Origin: Limnothrix sp. CACIAM 69d
GTDB lineage: Bacteria > Cyanobacteriota > Cyanobacteriia > CACIAM-69d
Direction of reading: 5' to 3'
NCBI GenBank assembly: GCA_001913845.2
Contig: MKGP02000063.1
Span: forward strand, 124,001-188,000
Length of the DNA stretch: 64,000 nt
The notes below the pieces were generated by a model. That model saw only the letters and a program-made list of their open reading frames with translations. It was not told where the DNA came from and ran no database searches. Below, piece after piece: positions 5,395 to 44,287 of the stretch. How positions within the stretch are numbered: position 1 is the stretch's first letter; each line of letters opens with the position of its first letter. The position numbers were made by a program, and so were the translations under genes.

Positions 5395-5536
5395 GGGCCT
5401 GTCGTCATTTCCTAGGATCAGGTGAAAACGATTGACTTTCCATGTCCCAGTCGTTGTAACAAGATGCTCAAGCCCCTTGTCCCCCACGATCTGATGACGG
5501 TGGAATAAGGGTTTCAGGCGATTTGACGACACACCC
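5395..5536. mobile_element. MITE family A, full copy (A1)
   Basis: A 142-bp non-coding element with terminal inverted repeats, GGGCCTGTCGTCA at the left and TTGACGACACACCC at the right. It is flanked by TA on both sides (5393-5394 and 5537-5538), as expected for a TA target duplication. It contains half of the shared core palindrome (AGCCCCTTGTCCCCC). Related copies are at 8849, 19449 and 44144. Confidence 0.8.
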
Positions 5537-5540
5537 TATT

Positions 5541-5616
5541 AAAGGGCTTAAGCCCCTTGTCCCCCACGATCTGATGACGGTGGAATAAGGGTTTCAGGCG
5601 ATTTGACGACACACCC
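5541..5616. mobile_element. MITE family A, truncated tandem copy
   Basis: Bases 5550-5620 repeat 5470-5540 identically over 71 bases with an offset of 80. This is a second right half of the element, starting within the core palindrome and ending at the rseP stop codon. The TAG stop of rseP (minus strand, 5618-5616) consists of the flanking TA plus the first G of the element. Confidence 0.85.
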
Positions 5617-8746: not shown

Positions 8747-8837
8747 GTATGTTTGAGGAGCCTAAATGATTACTCTGCTGACCCGATCGATTGACCTGAT
8801 CGATCGTCGAAGACAAGGGGCTAGCAATCACCAAAGA

Positions 8838-9002
8838 CAAGGGGCTTAGGGCCTGTCGTCGTTGAGTACGAAACCCTCGATCTGCTGCTAGTGGATCGTG
8901 GGGGGACAAGGGGCTTAAGCCCCTTGTTACGACGATTAGGGCACGGAAGATCAATCGTTTCAGCATCACCTCGAAAAATGACGATACCCCCTAAGCCCCT
9001 TG
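8838..9002. mobile_element. MITE family A copy nested in a core palindrome
   Basis: A 143-bp family A element (8849-8991) with ends GGGCCTGTCGTCG and ATGACGATACCCCC, flanked by TA on both sides. The outer flanks are CAAGGGGCT (8838-8846) and AGCCCCTTG (8994-9002). Joined through one TA they rebuild the palindrome CAAGGGGCTTAAGCCCCTTG. The element also carries its own intact palindrome at 8907-8926. Confidence 0.85.
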
Positions 9003-11337: not shown

Positions 11338-12075
11338 GGGCGATCGATCCTCATGCAGCGAAGGAAGCCACAGCAAACCATATCAAAAGCAATATAGATC
11401 AATTTCTTCAAGTTGATGGTTGAAATATTTCTTGAACATGCTCTTGAATGCTCTCTTGAATTTTCTAGAAACTGCATTTAGAAATTACATTTAGAAATTA
11501 CGCTTCCGAGAAAACCTAAAATTGAGTTGTAGTTGCGGTTGTAGATTAGATTGAGGCACGAAACCCAACCACAGCAAAGTTCGTGGTGATTGAGTTAGGT
11601 TTCGCAAAGCTCAACCCAACCTACAGGAAAACCACATAGGAACTAGGTAATTATAAAGTTTGCTAGTCAATCAGCAATCTTGGAGAAAAATTTAAAATAA
11701 AGATCGTGATTGATGCAAGAGGTCTGTTGAGTCTTGGTTCAGTAAAATCTTCAAGTTTCTTCTAGTCCTAAGAGGATGTCTGAGAAGTATCTTTCAATAT
11801 GGGCTGAAGATTAATTGTCGTAGGAACAAGGGGCTTAAGCCCCTTGTCTACATCGATCTCTGAGGCTTACAGAGTAGCAATTTTGGCTTTTCAGACATCC
11901 TCTAAGTCTCTTCATTGAGTCAATTGATTGATTTGATTGATTGATTTGATTGATTTACTGGGTGGTTTCTTTTTAGTAACTACCGCACTTTTTTGTGCGT
12001 ACTTGTTGCCGCCGAGAGAAGCCCCTAGGATTAATTCAATCGCCTAGTTTACTGAACCGAGAGAGAGTTTTAGGC
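11338..12075. other. Repeat-rich intergenic region
   Basis: 738 bases without a convincing gene. It holds short tandem repeats (TTTAGAAATTACA twice near 11476-11502), an imperfect inverted repeat of the type CACGAAACCCAACC...GGTTTCGCAAAGCTCAACCCAACC (about 11545-11625), the family B MITE, and a TTGATTGATT microsatellite near 11930-11957. The promoters of the HxlR and CDGSH genes must lie here. Confidence 0.6.
11772..11902. mobile_element. MITE family B, full copy
   Basis: A 131-bp element with terminal inverted repeats GAGGATGTCTGAGAAG and CTTTTCAGACATCCTC (one mismatch), flanked by TAA on both sides. The centre is the intact 20-bp palindrome CAAGGGGCTTAAGCCCCTTG at 11827-11846. No coding capacity. 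Confidence 0.85.
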
Positions 12076-19406: not shown

Positions 19407-19872
19407 TCAACAGTTCTTCCATCCCCTCACCGCCCTAGACAAGGGGCTTAGGGCCTGTCGTCATTTCCATCGCCGTAGGGGTTGGGTCTCCCAACCCTAA
19501 CCCGGGCGATCGCCACAACCCTGGCCACCCCTGGGAACACCCAAGGATTACGGGCACTGGGCGGGGAAACCCCGCCCCTACGACTGATTGGTTTGAAGAA
19601 CGAGGTCATCAGGGTTTCAGGCAATTTGACGATCGCCCCTCAGCCCCTTGTCTCTGTCGATCGATCAAACCCACCCGGTAGCCGTTTGGGCTGTTCAGAC
19701 TTCCTGGGCGATCGGTGCTGCTGGGTTGTGGAAATCACGCCGGGCCTAGACCTCTCGGCCAAATCCGGCACAATAGGAACATTGGCCCCATGGGCTAATC
19801 AACCGTGCTGGTCAACAGTACAGTGCCACGCCCCAACCTGTTCGCATTCCAATTGCTGCTCCATCCCTGACC
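19407..19872. other. Intergenic region between the S8 protease and metH
   Basis: 466 bases that hold the nested repeats described at 19440-19653 and the metH leader. Short inverted repeats of the GTAGGGGTTGGGTCTCCCAACCC and GGGCGGGGAAACCCCGCCCC kind lie at about 19475-19590. I saw no cobalamin-riboswitch B12 box. Confidence 0.5.
19440..19653. mobile_element. Decayed MITE family A copy nested in palindrome, with inner repeat
   Basis: The left flank CAAGGGGCTTA leads directly into GGGCCTGTCGTCA (family A left end). On the right, GGGTTTCAGGCAATTTGACGATCGCCCC leads into AGCCCCTTGTC. So the element again splits the core palindrome at its central TA. Inside lies a second repeat unit (about 19475-19592) with GGGGAAACCCCGCCCC stems. 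The right TA has decayed to TC. Confidence 0.65.
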
Positions 19873-44143: not shown

Positions 44144-44287
44144 GGGGGTGTCGTCAAATGAGCTAAAACCTGGATTCCATCGGGACGAGATCGTGGGGGG
44201 GCAAGGGGCTTAAGCCCCTTGTCTGGGGTGGTTAGGGTATGGAAGATCAACCATTTTTACTGGATCCCAGGCAATGACGACAGGCCC
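44144..44287. mobile_element. MITE family A, full copy
   Basis: A 144-bp element with ends GGGGGTGTCGTCAAAT and GCAATGACGACAGGCCC, flanked by TA on both sides (44142-44143 and 44288-44289). The intact palindrome is at 44202-44221. Its right end contains the start codon of the glycosyltransferase gene. Confidence 0.88.

Follow-up and report, generated by a model that had tools for sequence, protein, structure and literature searches.

Family A, a MITE, inserts repeatedly at the exact center of a 20-bp palindrome, of which a further copy lies in the element's own core. With good confidence, this repeated insertion at the palindrome's center is explained by a MITE acting together with an IS5_3-type transposase that prefers symmetric targets. 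Direct support exists for the insertion itself, the TA duplication, the excess over chance, the contrast with a control family, the target consensus, the presence of palindromes prior to insertion, and a matching IS in a relative. In the proposed mechanism, an IS5-family transposase (NCBIfam IS5_3) would mobilize family A, which has a 2-bp TA duplication, and would favor targets with two-fold symmetry that follow the pattern RRSC-Y-TA-R-GSYY. The element would land time and again at the exact center because the palindrome, CAAGGGGCTTAAGCCCCTTG, conforms to this pattern and has many copies in DNA outside genes, and copies of family A would themselves be targets because they carry it. Tandem half units would arise mostly by local duplication, with some arrays perhaps aided by the direct repeats that are made when the palindrome is inserted into.

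Split palindromes and empty sites in a sister species

The window, the whole 64-kb stretch of DNA that was analyzed (G000:C63:124001-188000), belongs to a 4.57-Mb draft genome and harbors eight copies of the palindrome with at most three mismatches, five of them exact, against a shuffled-window expectation of 0.01. At one site, the palindrome is split by a family A element. The left half CAAGGGGCT and the target TA (together CAAGGGGCTTA) occupy 8838-8848, the 143-bp element with ends GGGCCTGTCGTCG and GACGATACCCCC occupies 8849-8991, and a second TA with the right half AGCCCCTTG (together TAAGCCCCTTG) occupies 8992-9002, all on the forward strand. The preliminary description had given exactly this layout and had stated that the element carries the same palindrome itself; a palindrome scan locates an intact copy, a potential target, at 8907-8926. 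It had also proposed that the palindrome is restored once the element is taken away, and the sister species G002 displays just such a locus, with the unsplit palindrome CAAGGGACTTAAGCCCCTTG and no element. Short tandem CAAGGGGCTAGCAATCACCAAA units beside this target (window 8800-8848) and, on the reverse strand, at L160 echo the left half of the palindrome; G002 has one unit more at the 8838 locus.

Unsplit palindromes without an element are present at further G002 loci, corresponding to L253 1923, L102 8620, L133 523, L120 8788, and L113 4834, and at some of the six loci they differ by one or two bases. The searched palindrome sites at L137 and L265 could not be cleanly compared with G002, and the G002 locus of L115 is missing the palindrome stretch. 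Precise loss from G002, rather than gain here, is possible at single loci; insertion is the simple reading because TA joints are found at six loci and other copies reside at ordinary sites. The flanks CAAGGGGCTTA and TAAGCCCCTTG could also be regarded as the outer TIR of the element, with no target preference involved, as both are perfect inverted repeats that recur at many copies. However, they are missing from 47 of the 78 curated copies, and the element-free, unsplit palindromes at six orthologous G002 loci rule out this extended-TIR reading, which is extremely improbable.

A second split palindrome consists of a left half with TA at 19440-19450, an insert at 19451-19639, and a right half at 19640-19650, again on the forward strand, where the duplication is TC rather than TA. 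The G002 locus lacks the insert and contains a degenerate version of the palindrome (AGGGCTTGAGCATCT). The preliminary description had regarded this insert as a decayed copy in the same arrangement; the arrangement is correct, but the insert has the same ends with another interior and thus represents a second size class, not a decayed 143-bp copy. This 189-bp class, which combines family A ends with a distinct interior containing GGGGCGGGG and GGGTTGGGAGACCCAACCC motifs, accounts for 13 of the 78 curated copies. A GA flank (TC on the other strand) replaces TA recurrently, at several palindrome insertions (L102 4772, L155 3300, L158 17599, L092 12040, L113 4834, and window 19639). Elsewhere in the window, a family A element at 44144-44287 lies in an ordinary CTA insertion site with its core palindrome intact at 44202-44221, and a core palindrome at 11827-11846 lies close to a family B end at 11902. 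An Rfam scan of the window returned no family at the gathering threshold.

Target preference and its basis

Family A displays the characteristics of a MITE: it is short and non-coding, has TIRs and a constant target duplication, and is present in many copies. Its members are 142-143 bp or 189 bp in size with an imperfect TIR, GGGNNTGTCGTCA, and TA is found at both sides of 51 of the 78 curated copies. The palindrome is more widely distributed, with 238 exact copies in the G000 genome, 272 and 109 in two congeneric species, and occurrences in 11 of the 39 genomes searched. Some copies stand alone, and others form the core of family A or of the unrelated family B, a second mini-transposon with ends GAGGATGTCTGAAAAG. 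GCGATCGC sites are numerous in the G000 genome, which is suggestive of a cyanobacterium. REP sequences are defined by a GTAG/CGTC tag beside a hairpin, whereas the conserved unit here is a perfect 20-bp palindrome without a tag, and a literature search for AAGGGGCTTAAGCCCCTT found no paper with that sequence. In distant cyanobacteria (L182:1504 and L184:1507), the same 20-bp palindrome lies within repeats with TATAGC-like ends that resemble neither A nor B.

The central TA is missing from the core of 23 of the 78 family A copies, which carry the variant CAAGGGGCTTGAGCATCTTG (for example L100 10407-10548 and L156 1976-2117) and hence cannot be centrally nested into. Unlikely is the proposal that the palindrome is a module common to several unrelated MITE families, located at their centers, which an IS5-type transposase came to prefer, each MITE copy then providing safe landing sites for subsequent ones. 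If that were true, the CAAGGGGCTTGAGCATCTTG variant would be a self-immune form, closed to nesting.

Base-level tables were generated from 2.32 Mb of the 4.57 Mb, in 119 stretches of which some were picked for family A ends, while exact end and palindrome counts cover whole genomes; a flank was called a palindrome half when at least 7 of 9 bases matched. Both halves flank 17 of the 78 curated copies, representing at least 16 separate events, and a single half flanks 14, with the other 47 (∼60%) at ordinary sites. Palindrome centers constitute 183 of the 58,680 TA sites in the 2.3-Mb sample, and family A therefore shows a 70-fold excess over random TA sites, in agreement with the preference for the central TA claimed beforehand. 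The flank tabulation that had been suggested as a check points the same way: a CAAGGGGCT match of at least 7/9 adjoins 48 of 160 TA-flanked family A ends versus 0.55% of random TA half-sites. Related genomes show the excess too: in whole-genome counts, CAAGGGGCT lies directly before 22 of 125 TAGGGNNTGTCGTC ends in G000, 24 of 74 in G001, 8 of 29 in G002, and 2 of 14 in G004.

Part of such an excess could reflect survivorship, in that palindromes lie in harmless intergenic DNA where insertions are kept while others are lost. Indeed, 155 of the 183 palindromes lie outside ORFs, and correcting for this cuts the 70-fold excess to 33-fold. Nonetheless, TA sites outside ORFs alone still give that 33-fold excess (p = 2e-19), and family B, under the same filter, is almost without excess, which makes survivorship a very improbable explanation.

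Family B, whose core contains the same palindrome, also serves as a control for the idea that the palindrome acts as a hot spot, for example as a cruciform or exposed loop, for every TA-targeting transposon, with family A itself unselective. A perfectly palindromic target and insertion exactly on its axis are consistent with that idea, but only 2 of 161 family B ends adjoin a palindrome half (at least 7/9) versus the 48 of 160 for TA-flanked family A, and on these grounds a hot spot open to all transposons is rejected. A preference for cruciforms is unsupported by the palindromy of other family A targets, which average 2.59 of 9 self-matches versus 2.30 at random TA sites (p = 0.12), and these targets nonetheless have bases in common with the palindrome. 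The hot-spot explanation as a whole is improbable.

The shared bases define a broader preference. The 26 cleanest non-palindrome insertions of family A have the symmetric consensus RRSC-Y-TA-R-GSYY in common (leave-one-out AUC 0.91), and the palindrome fits it, its score ranking within the top 1.8% of TA sites. When non-ORF sites of equal consensus score are compared, insertions favor the palindrome ∼2.5-fold over the others (p = 0.008); both the comparison and its p value are rough because the training set of the score included some of these sites. With only ∼2.5-fold remaining at equal score, the preference consists mostly of the general consensus with a modest palindrome-specific extra, and can be ascribed chiefly to sequence recognition by the transposase. 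The earlier claim of a preference for the palindrome's center thus stands as an excess far above chance, refined to one that follows mostly from a broader consensus.

Nesting, tandem arrays, and the candidate transposase

An element that targets its own core can nest, and the preliminary description had proposed self-nesting as the source of tandem arrays. Among the 17 palindrome insertions, the host on both sides is family A in two (L265 1538 and L267 8202) and family B in five; seven have no recognized host family, and the rest are one-sided. The sample contains ∼204 intact palindromes: 44 are enclosed by A ends on both sides and 30 by B ends, and 75 have no A or B end on either side, indicating that family A shows no particular bias toward its own copies. 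Family A serves as host less often than free-standing palindromes and family B do. Self-nesting does occur, in the two clean A-in-A cases and in an IS of G004 inserted in an A-like element, yet it is a minority outcome.

Regular tandem arrays have a different character. In seven regular tandem pairs, neighboring units are 90-99% identical, mostly above their identity to any other sampled locus, versus a between-locus median of 78%, which points toward local duplication and does not support self-nesting as their source. The family A element at 5395-5616 of the window (reverse strand), in which one half unit is tandemly duplicated with an 80-bp shift and 99% identity between units, belongs with these arrays, which on their sequence identities look like local duplications. 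Looser junctions with 71-82% identity (L155, L070, L111, L125, L113, and L140) may be nested insertions that subsequently lost a half. At L158 17599 and L136 344, the left half derives from family A and the right half is family B-like, the two meeting at the palindrome; such hybrids probably arose through nesting followed by loss.

The nested copies could in theory all stem from a single insertion that then spread as copies, which the preliminary description had named as a refuting outcome. L074 and L116 do have like elements (99%) and B-host flanks (82%), and this B-with-A-inside composite moved as a unit. No other pair of the 17 has both a near-identical element and matching flanks, however, and the hosts are varied, comprising unique sequence, B elements, and A elements. 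Outside that one pair, a single-duplication origin was not found, and as a general account it is vanishingly improbable.

A candidate autonomous partner is present in the family-level relative G004. The IS at L192 959-1820 is 862 bp long and contains two overlapping ORFs that match NF033580 (IS5 family), DUF4096 (PF13340), and DDE_Tnp_1 (PF01609), all above cut-offs. It terminates in GGGGGTGTCGTCA and GGGGCTGTCGTCA, is bordered by a TA duplication, and is placed between CAAGGGGCT and AGCCCCTTG, inside the palindrome of an A-like element, the host comprising a single left half and two right halves, all of them A-like. An autonomous IS with ends matching the MITE, the sole such copy seen, is therefore found in this relative. 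In the host genome G000 and in G001, a profile search for DUF4096 (PF13340) returned nothing, and a protein search for the IS5_3 transposase at E 1e-60 found none in G000, a draft assembly that may miss copies. The sole IS-sized pair of family A ends in the sample (L138 2785-3931) was rejected as a candidate; its lone long ORF (250 aa) is, by eye, unlike a transposase.

A close relative (E at most 1e-60) is present in only three of the 390 genomes of the class. Elsewhere among cyanobacteria, more distant relatives with TAGGGCATGTCGTCA or TAGGGCGTGTCATCA at their ends and with TA occupy ordinary sites; Moorena and two other cyanobacterial genomes harbor similar ends and TA in CTA/TTA/GTA-type sites. 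With no IS5_3 transposase detected in G000 or G001, we infer the mobilization of family A from its ends and duplication only. A transposase of the G004 type would, judging by these features, have moved family A and set its target preference.

Comparison with palindrome-targeting insertion sequences

Each new copy of family A may add a harmless landing site, and this offers a route, open to testing, by which nesting, mosaic elements, and short tandem arrays could come about. The natural variants, with the core intact or without its TA, allow tests of the way in which an IS5-type transposase recognizes symmetric targets.

Insertion sequences that hit palindromes are already known. According to the passages of Tobes and Pareja (2006, PMC1525189) on this element, ISRm22 of Sinorhizobium meliloti belongs to the IS4 family, makes a 6-bp duplication, and lies in REPs in all of its copies. 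Family A resembles it in inserting on the symmetry axis of a repeated palindrome, and differs in being a MITE that has a 2-bp TA duplication, is only partly targeted, and carries its own copy of the target palindrome. IS1397 and ISKpn1, cited in the same passages, are autonomous members of the IS3 family that target the palindromic units of BIMEs. The likeness lies in specificity for a repeated palindrome, there attributed to the transposase; the palindromes are different, and those passages report no target copy within these elements. In the manner typical of REP-targeting ISs, family A inserts at one set position within a repeated palindrome at a frequency far beyond chance; it thus works like ISRm22 and IS1397 with a transposase of a different family.

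Within the NF033580 type (transpos_IS5_3), the G004 IS shares DUF4096 and DDE_Tnp_1, A-like ends, and the TA duplication, whereas the relatives in Moorena and two other cyanobacteria, unlike family A, use ordinary sites despite similar ends. As far as the literature searched shows, two features are new in comparison with these systems: a MITE whose core contains the target that it prefers, and an autonomous partner that sits within an element of this kind.
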